From the NCBI RefSeq assembly GCF_013166655.1, contig NZ_JABKCA010000047.1:1-44371 (forward strand): DNA of 44,371 nucleotides, written 5' to 3'. Below, piece by piece: positions 11,005 to 21,335 of this stretch. The notes under the pieces were generated by a model, which was not told where the DNA came from, did no database searches, and saw nothing but the letters and a program-made list of their open reading frames with translations. The first letter of the stretch is position 1. The number at the start of each line of letters is the position of its first letter. Made by a program: the position numbers and the translations under genes. Source of the stretch: Lentimicrobium sp. L6. GTDB lineage: Bacteria; Bacteroidota; Bacteroidia; Bacteroidales; UBA12170.

Positions 11005-14000
11005 TTAGACCTTTCGCCCAATAATCACCACATTAGAATTCATTTTGGTATGGTCGATGAGTTCAACTTGTAGACCAAGTGATTCGAGTAAGGAAATCCT
11101 ATCGCTAGCAGTACCAAAGTATAATTGTTTGTTATCGTCTTTGGTTTTATTAAAGCCAAAGAATTTGGTAGATTGCCATTCACTGAACTTGGTTCCTCTG
11201 TGTTTCTTCTCAAGACTGGTATCTGCATCACGAATGATAATCATTCCTCCTTGATTTAAATGGGCAACAGATTCCTTAATCACATATTCTTGCTCATCTT
11301 CAGGAATATAATGAAGCACATCGGCTAAAACATAGACATCAGCATTCTGGAATTTCCAATGGTTTAAATCTGCTGACTCAAACTCCACTTGTCCATCTAA
11401 AAATTGCTTTCTCGCACTATTATTTTGAGCCACTTGAATTTTATCTTCATCATAATCTACTCCCAGCACACTCCTCTTATTGGAAAGCATCATGAGCATA
11501 TAATCCAACATGCCGTTACCACAACCCAAATCGATGATATGTGCCTCTTGAGGAATCACTTCATTAAAGAACTCGTAATTCTTTTCAAAATTCATCTTAA
11601 TCTTCACATACCATTCTAGAACCGGTCCTTTATAGATATAATTCATATCCACACGTTTGCGCATATAATTTGGTGTGATTACTTCATTTGCAATCTCCTC
11701 TAATTGATCTTGATACCAAGACCTGAATTTCTTAGAACGCTGCACATACCCTTCTCCAAATCGCTTATCATCAAGAGCTATCCTATCTCCCACTTTCACA
11801 TCTATTCTACCACTCTTCAGAAAAGGTTCTCCTTTGGTGATACAATGCCCAGGCCCGTGCAGAATAATAGGTAATACATCCAAATTTAATTGCTCAGCTA
11901 GGTAAAAAGCTCCTTTATGAAAACGGCCTATTTTTCCTGTAGCAGAGCGAGTTCCTTCTGGGAAAATCATGATAGAATAACCTTCGTCTGTCTTTTTCTT
12001 CAATAAATCTACATGGGCATGGAGATGGTCGAGAATGGGATAAAAATCAGCCATTTTCACAATGAATCCATAGAAGAAATTCCTTTGTACCCAGTCATTG
12101 GTCAGCAATATCATTTTAGGATGCAACATGAGCATCAACATGATATCGATATGGCTTTGATGGTTGCTTATAATAACTGCAGGCTCCTCAAACTTTTTCT
12201 TATCGAAGCCCATCACATTTTTCTTCACATTAAACATGATATAAATCATGATTCTACTCGTAATGACCAATAGCTTATGAAACCACAACCTTGTACGCTT
12301 ACTCTTGCCTCCTGTTAGAATGATCAAAAAGAAACCAGCAATGGTATTAAACAAACTCCCTATGGTAAAAACCAAAAGAGCAATAATAGAGCCCAATAGA
12401 TTCAATGCAGTAACCGGAACCAATCTTCGCTGTCCTTTTTTCACATTGATCAGCCAATAGAATAGCAAAGGCTGCAAACTGAAACTCAATATAAATACAC
12501 TCGACAAACCGATGATAGTCACAAAAGCCATGGATTGTAACGCAGGATGCTTAGCAAAAAGCAGAACTCCAATTCCAACCATACTAGTCACTGTCGAAAA
12601 TAGAATACTGGTTTTAAAAGAGTCTAATTTCTCTTCTCCATATTTATATTCCTGCATTAAACCACGTGTGATAAAAATGCAATAATCTATCCCTAAACCA
12701 AAAACGAAGGTGCTGATAATAATATTTACGATATTGAATTCTAACCCTAAAAGAGCCATGAGTCCAGTAGTCCAAATCCAACTCAAAGCCAAAGGTAAAT
12801 AGGTAATGACTGCTAATTCAATTCTCCCAAAACTCATCCAGATAATTAAGAAAACCAGTAATAAAGTTAAATTGACCAACCACTGAAAATCATCTTGTAA
12901 TTGCTTGACGAATTGAGTAGTAAGATATTCTTTATCAATAATATAAATGCCTTCGTGAGATTGCTGATCTAAAACGTCATGCAATTTATGTTTATTCTCT
13001 GAACTTGTTTTTATTTGAGTGATGGCCATAGGCATTTCGGCTGTCCCCTGAAGAAACTCACTTAAAAATGCTTCTTTAATCAAATGGGTATCTGACTCTG
13101 AAATACTGACAAAATCAGAATGAAACCAATTCTTAAATCGATCAAAACTTCCAGCCCTAAAGCCATAGTTGTTTTCTATATCCTCTAATTGGCTGAGCAG
13201 AATCTTCTGTTTATCAAATGTCCAATAGGCTTTCCATTTTTCTATTTTCTCATTCTGCAGCTTTTTAGAAGGTAATATGGATGAAACCGAAGTAAAGTTC
13301 ATCACCAAGTCTTTATCTATATTCGACAAACGATTTTCGAAAGCTTCGTTTTTCTGAAGAACGGATTCTAAATCATCTCCTAAGGCCACCACATATATAT
13401 TCCTCTGACTCAGTTTTGTGATCTCATTCAGATGTCGCTCGGCATTTCTGGTCATGGCCTCCATGAAATTGATTTCATTCATATCGCCCTGAAATTTAAC
13501 TTCTTTAGAGAAATAGTAAAAAACAGGAGATAAAATGAGGATGGCTAGGATCAAAAAAGTCTTCTGGTGAAAAGGGTAAATAGAAATATAGTTGACGAGT
13601 CTTTGAACAAGGTTGAGCTTCACTTCTTTTTTCTCTTCTCCCTTCTTCTTCTCTTTCAAAATTAAAGGAATAAAAACGAGGGAAAACAAAGCTGAAAAAA
13701 TTATACTAAGCCCTGCAAACCAACCCATATCTTGCAATGCTGGAGCGGAGACTACTAGTAATCCAAGAAATGCTGTTGCTGTAGTAGCTGCACTTATCAA
13801 AATGGGTTCACTTACATCTTCCAATACTTTCTTAATGGAATTGGTTTTCTGAAAGTGAGTAAAAATATGTAAAACATAGTCGATACTAATCCCCACCAAT
13901 ACAGAACCCAGACCTAATGCAATGGCTGATATTTCCCCTTTTAGTAAATACAATACCGCCATACTTGTAATGACTGCTAAAGCAGCTGGTAAAAAGATAA

Positions 14001-14886
14001 TGAGATACAGTCGTTTGCTTTTATAGAAAAAGGCAATCAACAAAACCACCATCACCAAAGCCATACTCACGGTTAAAATGATGTCTTTTTTAATTTGCTC
14101 TGCATTTCCAGCTGCTACCACAGGTGCACCAAAATACTCAGCTATTATCCTCCCCTCAAACTGCTCTTCAAGCTCTTGAATATAGCTTTCTATTTCTAGA
14201 ACCATTTTTGCATTCTGTGCTGTTTCTGAAGAACTAGCTATTGGAGTAAGAAAGAATAATAAATGCTTTTTGTCCTGAGTGAACAGATATCCTTTATCAA
14301 TACTAATTTCTTGATCTATTTGAAAACCTTTTAAACGCTCTAGCGCTTTTAAACTCAAACCTGCTGGATCTTCAATAACCAACTTTTTAAGAAATACGGA
14401 AGCAGGGCTCAATAAACTCTTATACTTTTTTTTGAATGAGGATTGAAAGCGACCTTGCGTTATCAAAGTGTCAAAATAAGCATAATCAGAATCCTCTAAA
14501 AGAAAAGGTAAATTTCTTAATACATAGCTACTCACTTGGTCTATAGACTGATTCTCAATATTCAGTCTGATTTCTTTAATACGCGCTGAGGAGGCTAATG
14601 AATCGGATAATTGCTTGGCAAACTTAATCAGCTCGTTTTGTTGAATTTCTGAAGTATCACTTAAATAAATATTGAAAAACAGTCTATCGCTGAGGTTAAT
14701 ATGCGCTAAGATATCATTCAGTTGATCAGCATTTTCTGACTTGGGTAAAATAGCCCGTGCATCTTCTGATAATTTCAATTGAAATGCCCCAAAACCAAGA
14801 GCTAGAAAAAACAAAATAGTTATCAAACCATATAATACTGGGCGACGGCGAAAAGCTTTTTGAAAACCAAAGAAAAATCTATTCAT
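11005..14886 (-). CDS. Trifunctional fusion: MMPL/RND exporter - PlsC acyltransferase - SAM methyltransferase
   Basis: A 1293-residue inner-membrane protein. Residues 1-~810 form an MMPL/RND exporter: a first TM (~17-37), an extracytoplasmic loop to ~265, then TM groups, repeated once. Each half has the conserved glycine/aspartate segment (GISIDYVLHI and GLGIDYCIFI). Residues ~890-1050 are a PlsC-type acyltransferase with NHQSHID (HX4D, ~908) and FPEGTRS (~975). Residues ~1100-1290 are a class I methyltransferase with DLGCGNG (~1117) and VLADVLHYIPEDEQ. Export of an acylated, methylated lipid or polyene-like product is plausible: exporter, acyltransferase and methyltransferase genes occur together in aryl-polyene/flexirubin clusters. 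No other pathway gene is adjacent, however, so the product is unknown. No frameshift is visible. Confidence 0.85.
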   Translation of the reverse strand: MNRFFFGFQKAFRRRPVLYGLITILFFLALGFGAFQLKLSEDARAILPKSENADQLNDILAHINLSDRLFFNIYLSDTSEIQQNELIKFAKQLSDSLASSARIKEIRLNIENQSIDQVSSYVLRNLPFLLEDSDYAYFDTLITQGRFQSSFKKKYKSLLSPASVFLKKLVIEDPAGLSLKALERLKGFQIDQEISIDKGYLFTQDKKHLLFFLTPIASSSETAQNAKMVLEIESYIQELEEQFEGRIIAEYFGAPVVAAGNAEQIKKDIILTVSMALVMVVLLIAFFYKSKRLYLIIFLPAALAVITSMAVLYLLKGEISAIALGLGSVLVGISIDYVLHIFTHFQKTNSIKKVLEDVSEPILISAATTATAFLGLLVVSAPALQDMGWFAGLSIIFSALFSLVFIPLILKEKKKGEEKKEVKLNLVQRLVNYISIYPFHQKTFLILAILILSPVFYYFSKEVKFQGDMNEINFMEAMTRNAERHLNEITKLSQRNIYVVALGDDLESVLQKNEAFENRLSNIDKDLVMNFTSVSSILPSKKLQNEKIEKWKAYWTFDKQKILLSQLEDIENNYGFRAGSFDRFKNWFHSDFVSISESDTHLIKEAFLSEFLQGTAEMPMAITQIKTSSENKHKLHDVLDQQSHEGIYIIDKEYLTTQFVKQLQDDFQWLVNLTLLLVFLIIWMSFGRIELAVITYLPLALSWIWTTGLMALLGLEFNIVNIIISTFVFGLGIDYCIFITRGLMQEYKYGEEKLDSFKTSILFSTVTSMVGIGVLLFAKHPALQSMAFVTIIGLSSVFILSFSLQPLLFYWLINVKKGQRRLVPVTALNLLGSIIALLVFTIGSLFNTIAGFFLIILTGGKSKRTRLWFHKLLVITSRIMIYIMFNVKKNVMGFDKKKFEEPAVIISNHQSHIDIMLMLMLHPKMILLTNDWVQRNFFYGFIVKMADFYPILDHLHAHVDLLKKKTDEGYSIMIFPEGTRSATGKIGRFHKGAFYLAEQLNLDVLPIILHGPGHCITKGEPFLKSGRIDVKVGDRIALDDKRFGEGYVQRSKKFRSWYQDQLEEIANEVITPNYMRKRVDMNYIYKGPVLEWYVKIKMNFEKNYEFFNEVIPQEAHIIDLGCGNGMLDYMLMMLSNKRSVLGVDYDEDKIQVAQNNSARKQFLDGQVEFESADLNHWKFQNADVYVLADVLHYIPEDEQEYVIKESVAHLNQGGMIIIRDADTSLEKKHRGTKFSEWQSTKFFGFNKTKDDNKQLYFGTASDRISLLESLGLQVELIDHTKMNSNVVIIGRKV

Positions 14887-17001: not shown

Positions 17002-17586
17002 TTATTTCTCTTTTAAAAGTAATTCTAATACTGTGTCGGCTTGCATATTCGCAACTATGCCAACTCGCGGAGCTAATGGAGGGAATTCCTCCGAGACTTC
17101 ACTTTTTTCATCGCCACAAATATACAGATTGTCAGAATTACGCAAATGAATCGATTCAATATCTCCCCAACCCGCCATTCCTAGTCCAATAACTAAAGGA
17201 GTCGCAGATAGTTTTTCACAAATGGTTTCAATAATTATTTGTTTCATTTCAGCATTATCGAAAGCTTCCACTATAACATCACAATTCTTATATAGGTCGT
17301 AAATATCTTGAGCTTCAAGCTTAATCTGATGAGCTGAGATTTGAACATCTGGATTAATAAGATGGATATTCTCCTTTAAACTATAAACTTTCTGTTTTCC
17401 TATTTGATGATGAAAATAATACTGTCTATTCAAATTACTCTCTTCAATAACATCAAAATCAGCAATAATGAGCTTTCCAACCCCCACTCTCGCCAATGCT
17501 ACAGCACAATTGGAACCCAATCCACCACATCCGGCAATTCCTACGGTTTTATTTAAAAGTATCTCCTTTATCTTTTCAAATTTCAT
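17002..17586 (-). CDS. ThiF/MoeB-family adenylyltransferase, short form
   Basis: A 194-aa E1-like enzyme expected to adenylate the C terminus of the adjacent carrier protein. The nucleotide loop GIAGCGGLGSN (~16-26) is followed by IADFDVIEESNLNRQYYF with the conserved D, N and R, GKQK, and DVIVEAFDNAEMK with the catalytic-loop Asp. The paired CXXC zinc motifs of full-length MoeB/ThiF are absent, as in the ~200-aa ThiF family 2 common in anaerobes. The context, together with the ThiS-like gene and divergent from the AOR-family gene, resembles loci where MoaD/ThiF pairs accompany tungsten oxidoreductases. That functional link is inference. Confidence 0.82.
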   Translation of the reverse strand: MKFEKIKEILLNKTVGIAGCGGLGSNCAVALARVGVGKLIIADFDVIEESNLNRQYYFHHQIGKQKVYSLKENIHLINPDVQISAHQIKLEAQDIYDLYKNCDVIVEAFDNAEMKQIIIETICEKLSATPLVIGLGMAGWGDIESIHLRNSDNLYICGDEKSEVSEEFPPLAPRVGIVANMQADTVLELLLKEK

Positions 17587-17881: not shown

Positions 17882-17910
17882 ATCGATATGCGTTAGTTTG
17901 CATATCTGAT
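17882..17910. promoter_or_regulatory. ModE-box-like inverted repeat upstream of aor
   Basis: Left half ATCGATATGC (17882-17891), 8-nt spacer, right half GCATATCTGAT (17900-17910); the halves are complementary except for one extra base. The same 11-mer TATCGATATGC and GTTTGCATA occur in the pruA promoter. The half-site resembles the E. coli ModE half-site (ATCGnTATATA, from established knowledge). It ends about 40 bp before the -7 element, a position suited to an activator. Confidence 0.6.
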
Positions 17911-17948
17911 TATTAGGCTCTTTGGTGATTTTAGTAGATTAATTTTTA

Positions 17949-17956
17949 TAAATTTG
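17949..17956 (+). promoter_or_regulatory. Putative -7 element (TAAATTTG) for aor
   Basis: Consensus TAnnTTTG, 47 nt before the ATG. The nearest upstream TTTG is at 17921-17924, 24 nt away, slightly too far for an ideal promoter, which fits a promoter that needs an activator. Confidence 0.45.
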
Positions 17957-18003
17957 TCCAACGCAATTAAAATGGAATTATACATATAATAAATCCTTAG
18001 GAT

Positions 18004-20160
18004 ATGAATATTGAAGAAATAAAAAAACAACACAAATTATTAGCCGATTGGAAATACGACATCACTCCAGTTGACAAGGGATATACAGATAAAACTCTCT
18101 ATATCAATGTTTCTGATCTTACGATAAAATCAAAGGACGTTCCTGCTGAAATGAAAGAGAAATTCATCGGTGGAAAAGGATATGGTTTAAAATACCTTTG
18201 GGATGCAACAAAGCCTGACACAAAATGGAATGATCCTGAGAATGAAATCGTGATTTCTGGAGGCCCTATTTGTGGTATTACACAGTATTCTGGTACTGGT
18301 AAATCATTAGTTGTTAGTATATCTCCACAAACTAATTCAGTGATGGATAGTAATGTAGGTGGATACTTTGGACCATTTTTAAAATTTTCTGGATTTGATT
18401 CACTAGAACTTCAAGGAAAATCTGACAAAGAAGTGATTATCTTCATTGATGGAACAACTGGTAAAATTGAGATTATTGAAGCTCCTGCTGAAGCTATTGA
18501 CAGTCATGTATTGGCTGAGCAGCTTACAGAAATGTATGCTGACAATGATAAAGACAGAAAAAATGTAGCGGTCGTATCTGCTGGTGAAGCTGCCGATCAT
18601 TCATTAATAGGAATGCTCAACTTTAGTTTCTTCGATGCTAAACGTAAAGTAGTAAGATTGAAACAAGCAGGCCGTGGAGGTATCGGTACTGTTTTTAGAG
18701 ATAAAAAGATTAAAGCTCTTGTTTGTAAAGTTCCTGGTGTAACAGGAAACCTAAACAATGTGGTTGATCTTAAAGCCATCATGGAACGCGGTAGGACTTT
18801 CAACAAAGAGATGCGCGATTTAGATGATGACCAATGTGAAATGAAAACTAAAGGTACTGCTCACCTTATGGAAATCATGAATGATTATGATTTACTTCCT
18901 ACAAACAATTATAAGTATGGTAGTCATCATGATATCAAAAACATTGACTCTGAAGAGTGGAAAAGAAGATTTACTCAAGGTGTACCTGATGGATGTTGGT
19001 TAGGTTGTAATATGTCTTGTGCTAAAGGTATTGATAATTATGAATTAAGAACAGGTCCTTACGCTGGACAAAAAGTAATAGTTGATGGTCCTGAATATGA
19101 AAATGCTGGTGGACTTGGTTCTAACTGTGGTATTTTTAACCCTGATTATATTATTGAAGCGAACTTCTATTGCGATACTTATGGTATTTGCACTATTTCT
19201 TGGGGTACTTTAATGGCCTTTGCTATGGAGTGTTATGAGAATGGCATTCTAAACGAAGAAAGAACTGGTGGCTTAAAACTTAACTTCGGTAATTCTGATT
19301 CTGCTATGGAAGCCATGCACCAATTGGCTCGTGGAGAAGGATTTGGTCTTATTGCCGGAATGGGCGTTCGTAAGATGAAAGAGCTTTTCATTAAGAATGG
19401 TTGGGGTGATGCTGATTTCTTACAAGATATCGGAATGGAAAATAAAGGATTAGAATATTCTGAGTATATCTCTAAAGAATCTCTAGCTCAACAAGGTGGT
19501 TTTGCCATGACAAATAAAGGACCTCAGCACGATGAAGCTTGGTTAATCTTTATGGACGCAGTAAACAACCAAATTCCTTCTTTCGAAGACAAAGCAGAAG
19601 CCTTACATTATTTCCCAATGTTTAGAACTTGGTTCGGATTAATGGGATTATGTAAACTTCCGTGGAATGATGTAGAGCCTATTACTAATGCAGATTCTGA
19701 CGAGCCTGCAAAAGTTCCAGAACACGTTGACAATTATGTAACTATATTCAATGCTGTAACTGGTCAGAATATTGACAAACACGATATCATCCGTCAATCT
19801 GAAAGAGTTTATAATTACCAAAGAGCCTTTAACCTAAGAAGAGGTTACGGCACTAGAGAATTTGATGCTCAACCATACAGAGCTGCTGGCCCTGTTACTA
19901 TTGAGGAATACGAATCTAGAGCAGAACGTTACGATAAGCAACTAAAAGAAATTTTAAATATTGAACCAGAAGGTAAAACTACTGAAGAAAAACGTGATAT
20001 TCTTAGAGAATTCCGTGAGTCTCAATATGAAAAATTATTAGATGCTGTATATTTAAGAAGAGGATGGACCAAGAATGGTGTCCCTAAAATCTCTCACATG
20101 AAAGATTTAGGAATGGATTTACCAGAAATTCTTGAAACAATAACTCCTCATCAAAACTAA
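18004..20160 (+). CDS. aor: Aldehyde:ferredoxin oxidoreductase family enzyme (tungsten or molybdenum bis-pterin)
   Basis: Predicted cytoplasmic enzyme that oxidises aldehydes to acids with ferredoxin (or the reverse). Family motifs in order: GGKGYG (56-61), SGGPICGITQYSGTGKS, GGYFGPFLKFSGFD, GRGGIGTVF (223-231), and GPEYENAGGLGSNCGI from ~362, which together form the pterin-binding and substrate regions. Iron-sulfur ligands appear as C331, C335, C339 and C550 (GLCKLPW). The first three are spaced CX3CX3C, not the CX2CX3C of the Pyrococcus enzyme. At 718 aa it is ~110 longer than that enzyme, with about 20 extra N-terminal residues and extra C-terminal sequence. There is no adjacent ferredoxin or electron-transfer subunit. 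Monocistronic, with a terminator at 20183-20214. Metal and substrate cannot be told from sequence. Confidence 0.88.
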   Translation: MNIEEIKKQHKLLADWKYDITPVDKGYTDKTLYINVSDLTIKSKDVPAEMKEKFIGGKGYGLKYLWDATKPDTKWNDPENEIVISGGPICGITQYSGTGKSLVVSISPQTNSVMDSNVGGYFGPFLKFSGFDSLELQGKSDKEVIIFIDGTTGKIEIIEAPAEAIDSHVLAEQLTEMYADNDKDRKNVAVVSAGEAADHSLIGMLNFSFFDAKRKVVRLKQAGRGGIGTVFRDKKIKALVCKVPGVTGNLNNVVDLKAIMERGRTFNKEMRDLDDDQCEMKTKGTAHLMEIMNDYDLLPTNNYKYGSHHDIKNIDSEEWKRRFTQGVPDGCWLGCNMSCAKGIDNYELRTGPYAGQKVIVDGPEYENAGGLGSNCGIFNPDYIIEANFYCDTYGICTISWGTLMAFAMECYENGILNEERTGGLKLNFGNSDSAMEAMHQLARGEGFGLIAGMGVRKMKELFIKNGWGDADFLQDIGMENKGLEYSEYISKESLAQQGGFAMTNKGPQHDEAWLIFMDAVNNQIPSFEDKAEALHYFPMFRTWFGLMGLCKLPWNDVEPITNADSDEPAKVPEHVDNYVTIFNAVTGQNIDKHDIIRQSERVYNYQRAFNLRRGYGTREFDAQPYRAAGPVTIEEYESRAERYDKQLKEILNIEPEGKTTEEKRDILREFRESQYEKLLDAVYLRRGWTKNGVPKISHMKDLGMDLPEILETITPHQN

Positions 20161-20182
20161 TGATTCTGATGATAATATAGAT

Positions 20183-20214
20183 AAAAAGTCCTCTATAAAA
20201 TGAGGGCTTTTTTT
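20183..20214 (+). terminator. Intrinsic terminator after aor
   Basis: Stem AAAAAGTCCTC (20183-20193) / GAGGGCTTTTT with one G-U pair, 8-nt loop, then a T run to 20214. Confidence 0.85.
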
Positions 20215-20376
20215 AATGCTTTTTTTCTCAAATCAAACTTTATTCTGACTAATTATTAATAGCAGAAATAACTACATCAAAGAGCACTGCATAAAAAATA
20301 GTTTTATTTTAGCTGCTCCTTCAGTAGGATATAGAGAGATTACAAATCAAATAATAAATTATAAAAACAATACGCA

Positions 20377-20658
20377 ATGTTTAATGTAAACGAATATTTC
20401 GACGGAACGGTAAAATCATTAGGTTTTGATAATAAAGCAGGCAAAGTAACCATTGGCGTAATGGCTAAAGGTGAATATGAATTTGGTACTTCTATGGTTG
20501 AGCACATGACCGTAACATCAGGAGAAATGAAAGTTTTAATTGATGGTGAAACAGAATGGAAAGTTTATGGAGAATACGAAACTTTTAGAGTAGAAAAAGA
20601 TTCTAGTTTTAAAGTCATCTTAGAAGATCAAACTTCATATAAATGCGTTTATAGCTAG
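20377..20658 (+). CDS. ppnP: Pyrimidine/purine nucleoside phosphorylase PpnP (YaiE family)
   Basis: A 93-residue single-domain cupin. NEYFDGTVKSLGFD, GVMAKGEYEFGT and EHMTVTSGEMKVLIDGETEW align with E. coli PpnP (NEYF, GKVKSIGF, GVMVEGEYTF). The family phosphorolyses many nucleosides to base and pentose-1-phosphate. The length is standard. It stands between the aor terminator and the ModE-type regulator gene, with ~110 bp on its right side. No shared pathway with its neighbours is evident, and no consensus promoter was found. Confidence 0.92.
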   Translation: MFNVNEYFDGTVKSLGFDNKAGKVTIGVMAKGEYEFGTSMVEHMTVTSGEMKVLIDGETEWKVYGEYETFRVEKDSSFKVILEDQTSYKCVYS

Positions 20659-20719
20659 GAAGTTCATTTTTTTAGCTATTTATTTAACAATTTATATTTC
20701 CCAGCGGTAAATTTCGTTT

Positions 20720-20739
20720 TATATTTGCCATTGGTAAAT
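20720..20739 (+). promoter_or_regulatory. Putative promoter/operator of the ModE-type regulator gene
   Basis: A -7 element TATATTTG (20720-20727) overlaps the inverted repeat ATTTGCC (20723-20729) / GGTAAAT (20733-20739), 6 of 7 complementary. GGTAAAT also occurs at 20706-20712. Autoregulation is possible. Confidence 0.4.
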
Positions 20740-20770
20740 AAAAGCATGCGGTCCAAAAAAAAACTAATAT

Positions 20771-21142
20771 ATGAAACCACCAAGAAGCTCAAGAAATGAT
20801 GTATTCCTAAGATACAAATTATGGTTATCAGCTGTATCTGGCGAAGGTATTATTGAAGAAAACACATATGCTATTTTAAAAGCAATTGATGAAATGGGTT
20901 CGCTAAAATCTGCAGCAGAGCATTTAGGAGTGAGCTATAGAAAAGCTTGGGGTGATATAAAAAATTCAGAAGAATTATTGGGCTACAATCTCACAGAAAA
21001 GTACAGAGGAGGAGTTGGTGGAGGAGCCTCCACCCTCACCCCTAAAGCTAAAAACCTATTGGAAGCCTACGACACCTTACATAAGAAAATGGATAATGCC
21101 ATTGAAGATGCTTATGAAGACTTTAAGGATAAAATATTATAA
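20771..21142 (+). CDS. ModE-type winged-helix transcriptional regulator without a ligand domain
   Basis: A 123-aa protein consisting only of a ModE N-terminal domain. FLRYKLWLSAVSGEGIIEENTYAILKAIDEMGSL leads into the helix-turn-helix SAAEHLGVSYRKAWGDI, followed by the wing region with GGVGGGASTLTPKAKNLLEAY. E. coli ModE has an additional tandem TOBE/MOP molybdate-binding region; it is absent here and no stop or frameshift suggests its loss. Metal sensing, if any, must therefore occur differently or through a partner. It lies between aor and pruA, both of which carry a ModE-like box, so it is the natural candidate for binding them (inference). Confidence 0.87.
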   Translation: MKPPRSSRNDVFLRYKLWLSAVSGEGIIEENTYAILKAIDEMGSLKSAAEHLGVSYRKAWGDIKNSEELLGYNLTEKYRGGVGGGASTLTPKAKNLLEAYDTLHKKMDNAIEDAYEDFKDKIL

Positions 21143-21196
21143 TTCATAATAATTACATATCTTAAGTATTAAAACTCTTCAAAACTTCCAAATCAT

Positions 21197-21236
21197 AAAA
21201 AAACGCCCTAAAGCAGATATTTTCAGGGCATTTTTT
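21197..21236 (+). terminator. Intrinsic terminator after the ModE-type gene
   Basis: GCCCT (21205-21209) pairs with AGGGC (21225-21229), flanked by an A run on the left and six T on the right. Additional A/T pairs extend the stem past one mismatch. Confidence 0.7.
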
Positions 21237-21296
21237 ATTCCCAATATTTAACAAATTAAAAACTTTTCTTTCCCTTCGAATTTTAAGAGGAAATAT

Positions 21297-21304
21297 TACT
21301 TTTG
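21297..21304 (+). promoter_or_regulatory. Putative -7 element (TACTTTTG) for pruA
   Basis: Consensus TAnnTTTG, 64 nt before the ATG. The predicted transcription start (~21311) lies inside the adjacent ModE-like inverted repeat. Confidence 0.5.
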
Positions 21305-21306
21305 CA

Positions 21307-21335
21307 ATCGTTATGCAAACCCAATGCATATCGAT
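21307..21335. promoter_or_regulatory. ModE-box-like inverted repeat at the pruA promoter
   Basis: Left half ATCGTTATGC (21307-21316) and right half GCATATCGAT (21326-21335) are complementary at 9 of 10 positions, with a 9-nt spacer. On the opposite strand it shares TATCGATATGC and GTTTGCATA with the aor site. It begins 3 bp after the -7 element and covers the transcription start, a classic repressor position. Confidence 0.62.

Follow-up and report, generated by a model that had tools for sequence, protein, structure and literature searches.

The window, by which we mean the whole stretch of 44,371 nucleotides of contig NZ_JABKCA010000047.1 from Lentimicrobium sp. L6 (assembly GCF_013166655.1), carries two long palindromes, S1 and S2, at the promoters of aor and pruA, with a small modE-like gene between the two genes (Table 1). 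The aor product belongs to the tungsten/molybdenum AOR family. AFOR N- and C-terminal domains and 4Fe-4S cysteines were found, and C331, C335, C339 and C550 were invariant across eight aligned sequences. The pruA product had been called an aldehyde dehydrogenase in the initial annotation; more exactly, it was assigned as P5C/glutamate-semialdehyde dehydrogenase, with a TIGR01236 score above the cut-off. The initial annotation also proposed that one regulator activates aor and represses pruA through the palindromes, and comparison of sequences among relatives supported this regulon well. With a probability of about 75%, S1 and S2 would be operators of one ModE-type regulon, widespread among Bacteroidales, that switches aor on and pruA off, as a metal-sparing switch.

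Table 1. Genes and predicted regulatory features of the aor-pruA region (positions in the window)
Feature	Positions	Strand	Basis or remark
ThiF-family adenylyltransferase, divergent from aor	17002..17586	-	NF006395 256.1 bits, cut-off 159
S1, ModE-type operator (predicted), upstream of aor	17882..17909	+	ATCGATATGC-GTTAGTTT-GCATATCTGA, spacer 8, matrix score 23.2
Predicted aor -7 box TAAATTTG	17949..17956	+	Centre 57 nt downstream of S1 centre; same geometry in relatives
aor, 718-aa AOR-family (tungsten/molybdenum) oxidoreductase, CX3CX3C...C	18004..20160	+	Pfam AFOR_N/AFOR_C; PDB 1aor E 3.4e-46
ppnP-like gene, 93 aa, upstream of modE	20377..20658	+	Pfam Ppnp
Predicted modE -7 box TATATTTG	20720..20727	+	Without operator, unlike several near relatives
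modE-like regulator, 123 aa, DNA-binding domain only	20771..21142	+	TIGR00637; E. coli ModE 1b9m
Predicted pruA -7 box TACTTTTG	21297..21304	+	Immediately upstream of S2
S2, ModE-type operator (predicted), over predicted pruA transcription start	21307..21335	+	ATCGTTATGC-AAACCCAAT-GCATATCGAT, spacer 9, matrix score 33.8
pruA, L-glutamate gamma-semialdehyde (P5C) dehydrogenase, 542 aa	21369..22997	+	TIGR01236 774.9 bits, cut-off 613.6

Both palindromes contained the same motif pair with spacers of 8 or 9 nt, as had been described. The statement that their halves are complementary held for the inner arms of S1, which are perfect (GATATGC/GCATATC), and not for its outer bases, which are imperfect. 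On the - strand, S2 reads TATCGATATGC...GTTTGCATA, as in the initial annotation, and each site contains one of the two copies of the exact 11-mer TATCGATATGC found in the window. The final matrix was built on sites of relatives, S1 and S2 not being among them, and the best other score anywhere in the window was at most 7.1. No site was found before the modE, ppnP and thiF genes of the window (best matrix scores -8.4, -10.7 and -10.4). In the 5.14-Mb genome of the window (G000), a search allowing 0-2 mismatches returned S1, S2 and one further site (G000:C71:81-105, the same as L017:81-105) only, so the motif was not scattered at random. The third site lies about 40 nt before an fnr-type gene, which is followed by a thiol peroxidase (tpx) gene, and it links the regulon to redox control. 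With up to three mismatches, G000 gave no excess over a reversed control (4 vs 5 with an N6 spacer; 2 vs 2 with N7, those 2 being the exact sites), and therefore only close matches were counted. The corresponding values for the close relative G002 were 5 vs 2 (N6) and 6 vs 1 (N7). One weak three-mismatch match, common to G000 and G002, was observed at a lipoprotein gene of the type that bears sites in relatives (G000:C92:12688), where it overlaps the called start.

The consensus of the E. coli ModE operator is ATCGNTATATA-N6-TATATANCGAT, as given in PMC545781. S1 and S2 have the same length, spacing and outer arms, with GC for AT within each arm, which was consistent with the resemblance of the half-site noted earlier. 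Two positions per arm differ from the consensus, and 8 or 9 nt separate the GC steps. The distance from ATCGNTAT to ATANCGAT equals that of the E. coli consensus in S1 and is one base longer in S2.

The three close sites, at aor, pruA and fnr, were all kept in G002. In the case of aor, the arms were identical and the spacer was changed. In the case of pruA, both arms had the same outer-base change, one arm had a further change, and the spacer differed. The fnr site was kept with two mismatches to the pattern, before a protein of 87% identity. G002 also has a second AOR-type gene (L346:1583-3022, G002:C113), whose start lies about 58 nt downstream of a three-mismatch site. Conservation extended across Bacteroidales. 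An unbiased scan of 393 genomes of the order with CGWTATGCANNNNNNTGCATAWCG, allowing at most one mismatch, gave 53 sites in 43 genomes, whereas the reversed pattern used as control was found in 2 genomes. A ModE relative was detected in 140 of the 393 genomes, including 43/43 of those with the motif (Fisher 4e-22, uncorrected for relatedness), and in 42 of the 43 the match had E 1e-12 or better. Counted by genus, the motif was present in 33 of 206 and ModE in 91 of 206. AOR was found in 101 of the 114 genomes with a strong ModE match vs 36 of the 279 without.

The genes at the 53 sites were 15 aor, 17 of pruA type (15 of them clear) and 21 others. Two of the pruA-type assignments (L148 and L162), both far from their site, could be aldehyde dehydrogenases of another kind. 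The 21 others comprised 4 modE, 5 wtpA-type genes, 6 genes of one lipoprotein family and 6 single or unclear cases, one of which was a TonB receptor; the sites at L130, L135, L138, L144 (first) and L160 had no clear target. One wtpA-type member was scanned and identified as WtpA (381.9 bits, cut-off 355), and the remaining four were assigned by clustering. The lipoprotein family has no Pfam or NCBIfam name, and its scanned members gave no match or one weak match. In 5 of the 6 loci, the lipoprotein gene was followed by a gene of TonB-receptor size, either immediately or with one gene in between; Pfam confirmed two of these five and a third in G000. The lipoprotein and TonB receptor were observed together near weak or strict sites at L367:2780-6997 (G000:C92), L139 and L132. 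The clusters of G000 and L139 also encode a membrane-type protein and one similar to methanogenesis marker 11/TiaS. The lipoprotein/TonB-receptor cluster is a candidate for outer-membrane uptake of molybdenum or tungsten (Mo/W).

A matrix trained without aor sites was applied to the 79 usable upstream regions of 80 named aor loci. It scored at least 8 in 50 of the 79, compared with 0.14 expected from a permuted palindromic matrix (0.0018 per region). The site ended 61-105 nt before the start codon in 48 of the 50; the other two were at 123 and 184 nt, and the one at 184 nt belongs to a divergent pruA gene. An earlier null of random windows in the same loci was replaced since such windows can hit real sites; measured against its 99th percentile, 18 of the 79 regions passed, 16 of them at the usual distance. 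A second set of 20 aor genes, all from genomes with ModE, had at least 16/22 matches in 9 cases (shuffles 2/200). Loci that had already been retrieved, in part on account of the motif, were excluded from this set, so the rate may be low. A chance repeat was ruled out by the genome scan, the reversed control in 393 genomes and this matrix test.

The Bacteroidota promoter -7 consensus is TAnnTTTG, and boxes of this type (Table 1) agreed with the placement of the sites in the initial annotation, upstream of the aor promoter and over the start of pruA. Some loci in the sets used for geometry had been retrieved because of the motif. Of 74 listed boxes at 67 aor genes, 64 had their centre 40-69 nt downstream of that of the site, and for 45 the distance was 50-59 nt; in the window it is 57 nt. 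A site preceded 36 of 74 modE genes. At 37 site-bearing modE genes, 24 of 36 boxes lay 1-30 nt upstream of the site centre, with a matrix whose training included modE sites. For pruA, 13 of 28 boxes at 26 genes lay 11-40 nt upstream. Boxes at distance 0 may belong to the site itself. The geometry supported a predicted activator position at aor and a predicted repressor position at modE. At pruA, the repressor position holds for the predicted promoter of the window and less firmly elsewhere. Comparison supported the proposal of one regulator for aor and pruA in its ModE-type operator, single regulon, ModE-family link and activator position at aor. The repressor position at pruA was found in the window and at those 13 boxes; the site is absent from many pruA genes in genomes that have ModE.

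For 23 of 57 distinct PruA proteins, the gene had a site within 150 nt. This set is enriched, as some of its loci had been retrieved on account of the motif, and at least one pruA labelled as site-less (G353) has one farther upstream. On the PruA tree, the sites belong to two deep clades and require at least six changes. In genomes with paired pruA copies, one may carry the site and the other not (G224, G154, G372). In at least 16 genomes, that of the window among them, aor and pruA are no more than 6 kb apart. All 8 genomes tested encode proline dehydrogenase, and no site scoring at least 8 was found in its eight loci; at one locus (L374) three places scored 5.4-6.7, one of them about 1.2 kb upstream of the gene and the other two within it. 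The control would therefore be of the aldehyde step.

The 123-aa regulator matched TIGR00637 with E 2e-22 and 79.1 bits, below the curated cut-off of 98.5, and residues 24-104 of E. coli ModE (1b9m) with E 3.6e-9. No Mop/TOBE domain was found in it by Pfam and NCBIfam scans. By these matches it is a relative of the ModE DNA-binding domain and not a full ModE, and it therefore cannot sense metal in the manner of E. coli ModE. Among the matches listed, nearly all ModE relatives were short frames of about 80-170 aa, and one had 323 aa. In ten other genomes of the genus, G002 had a near copy (91%), and the others had matches of 44-46% or none. The regulator was the single ModE-like protein among the window proteins checked, as the initial annotation stated. 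The genome has a second ModE-like gene (L018:5757-6230), which shares a modABC-type operon (L018:5757-9130, G000:C2) with modA, a stand-alone Mop protein, modB and modC. Of four neighbour genes counted, ppnP was most often next to modE, being within 1.5 kb in 20 of 48 loci, and it lay upstream on the same strand in 19 of them. A relative of the ThiF-family protein was present in 45 of 80 aor loci; the ThiF-type protein next to aor may have a role in cofactor maturation. Elsewhere in the window (11005-14886), a 1293-aa protein combines MMPL transporter, acyltransferase and methyltransferase domains.

Several observations weighed against a common regulon under metal control. The regulator has no Mop domain and is thus without a known metal sensor. 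The aor matrix scored below 8 in 29 of 79 regions. In addition, 4 of 20 aor genes, from 20 of the 35 AOR-bearing genomes that lack a ModE match, still reached at least 16/22 matches at the usual distance (shuffles 0/200); two of the four (G032 and G145) belong to a genus whose other members have ModE. The link between ModE and the site at single genes is modest, or some ModE genes were overlooked. A site precedes modE in seven of the eight nearest named aor loci (L258-L265), the exception being the nearest one (L258, corresponding to G002), and it is missing before modE of both the window and G002. Fewer than half of the listed pruA boxes lie upstream of the site. Finally, among 20 further pruA genes of ModE-bearing genomes, three reached 16 matches (shuffles 5/200) and two reached 17 (shuffles 0/200); the set was taken after nine closer strong-ModE genes, six of which had a site within 150 nt, and the rate may be low. 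On these counts and the distribution over PruA clades, control of pruA is lineage-restricted.

In the proposed mechanism, the protein predicted to bind the sites is most likely the window's own ModE-like protein with its single domain. It would activate aor from a site about 57 nt upstream of the -7 box and would repress pruA by covering its start. In relatives, the putative operators lie close to the starts of modE, wtpA-type (tungstate-binding) genes and a lipoprotein gene, which is usually followed by a gene resembling those of TonB receptors. The active state is probably the metal-replete one, with uptake and pruA off and the metal-dependent AOR on, since wtpA-type genes and modE carry the site near their starts, as in the case of E. 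coli ModE and, reportedly, TaoR. The likely benefit is economy of metal: a tungsten/molybdenum AOR would be exchanged for an NAD-linked dehydrogenase that needs no metal, with glutamate semialdehyde as a possible substrate. We hypothesize that AOR replaces PruA at this substrate. As a guess, the ppnP product could be the signal partner of the Mop-less regulator. The full combination is improbable: throughout Bacteroidales, a one-domain ModE would act together with a separate sensor of the oxyanion, for which the PpnP-like protein is a candidate, and would swap tungsten AOR for NAD-linked PruA in the oxidation of glutamate semialdehyde.

Being inverted repeats, the palindromes might be hairpins, repeats or chance sequences instead of protein operators. 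However, their arms were kept while spacers varied freely between relatives, their distance to the aor -7 box was fixed, their geometry was that of the ModE consensus, and 43 genomes had the motif vs 2 for the control. The aor site also lies upstream of the predicted promoter and is hence probably untranscribed. An origin other than as protein operators is hardly credible. The sites might instead belong to the second ModE-like protein, which adjoins transport genes and a stand-alone Mop protein, so that metal sensing would be easier to explain. However, genomes whose best ModE match is weak (E >1e-12), the class of the second protein of G000 (1e-8), had the motif in 1 of 26 cases vs 42 of 114 with a strong match. 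The site precedes relatives of the 123-aa protein in nearly half of the modE genes (36/74), and the L018 stretch had no match of at least 16/20 positions to the palindrome type. Assignment to the second protein is very unlikely.

The regulon might also be real and not respond to Mo/W. The single-domain protein would then bind whenever present, set by its own synthesis or by another signal (redox, or nucleosides via PpnP), and something other than metal sparing would explain why aor and pruA are opposed. This is unlikely but carries more weight than the other alternatives. The missing Mop domain, ppnP as the commonest modE neighbour of the four genes counted (20/48), and fnr/tpx among the targets are consistent with it, whereas the site-bearing genes of relatives include AOR and wtpA-type genes of tungstate transport, which argues against it.

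TaoR of Desulfovibrio vulgaris (Rajeev 2019, doi 10.1111/1462-2920.14500) reportedly activates aor and represses tungstate transport. pruA is not known to be among its targets. TaoR is, like the protein proposed here, a regulator of a tungsten aldehyde oxidoreductase. In Pfam, the 123-aa protein matched HTH_1 alone, and its NCBIfam matches were of ModE/LysR type; the helix-turn-helix (HTH) with a PBP-like part that marks TaoR (PMC11980592) was not found. TaoR differs in this HTH type and in its operator. E. coli ModE represses modABCD and activates moa (PMC11980592). The system here resembles it in the winged-helix domain of ModE and in the predicted roles of repressor at one operon and activator at another, and differs in a regulator without Mop domains and in the targets aor and pruA. 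Single-domain ModE of Desulfovibrio likewise has the DNA-binding domain alone, with a sensing mechanism given as unknown in PMC545781; its predicted operator, CGGTCACG-N14-CGTGACCG, and its molybdate transport targets differ from those of S1 and S2. PMC545781 also describes cofactor-sparing switches, namely the B12-independent ribonucleotide reductase and the nickel-repressed [Fe] hydrogenase, in which a supply of the cofactor represses the enzyme that can do without it. In the switch proposed here, AOR and PruA would be the two enzymes, with tungsten or molybdenum in the place of the cofactor. The initial annotation knew of no such regulon, and no published account of a ModE/aor/pruA regulon was found in the literature searched, which lay mostly outside subscription papers.

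A role is known for tungsten oxidoreductases in 5 of 92 clades, according to the abstract of PMC13328260. The pairing with pruA gives a guess at the substrate of an AOR clade that is common in metagenome-assembled genomes of Bacteroidales. If the swap of tungsten AOR and PruA is true, this clade would oxidise glutamate semialdehyde and pass the electrons to ferredoxin. The regulon would also be a testable system for the signal input to ModE proteins without Mop domains, and it points to candidate uptake genes, namely wtpA and the lipoprotein with its TonB receptor.

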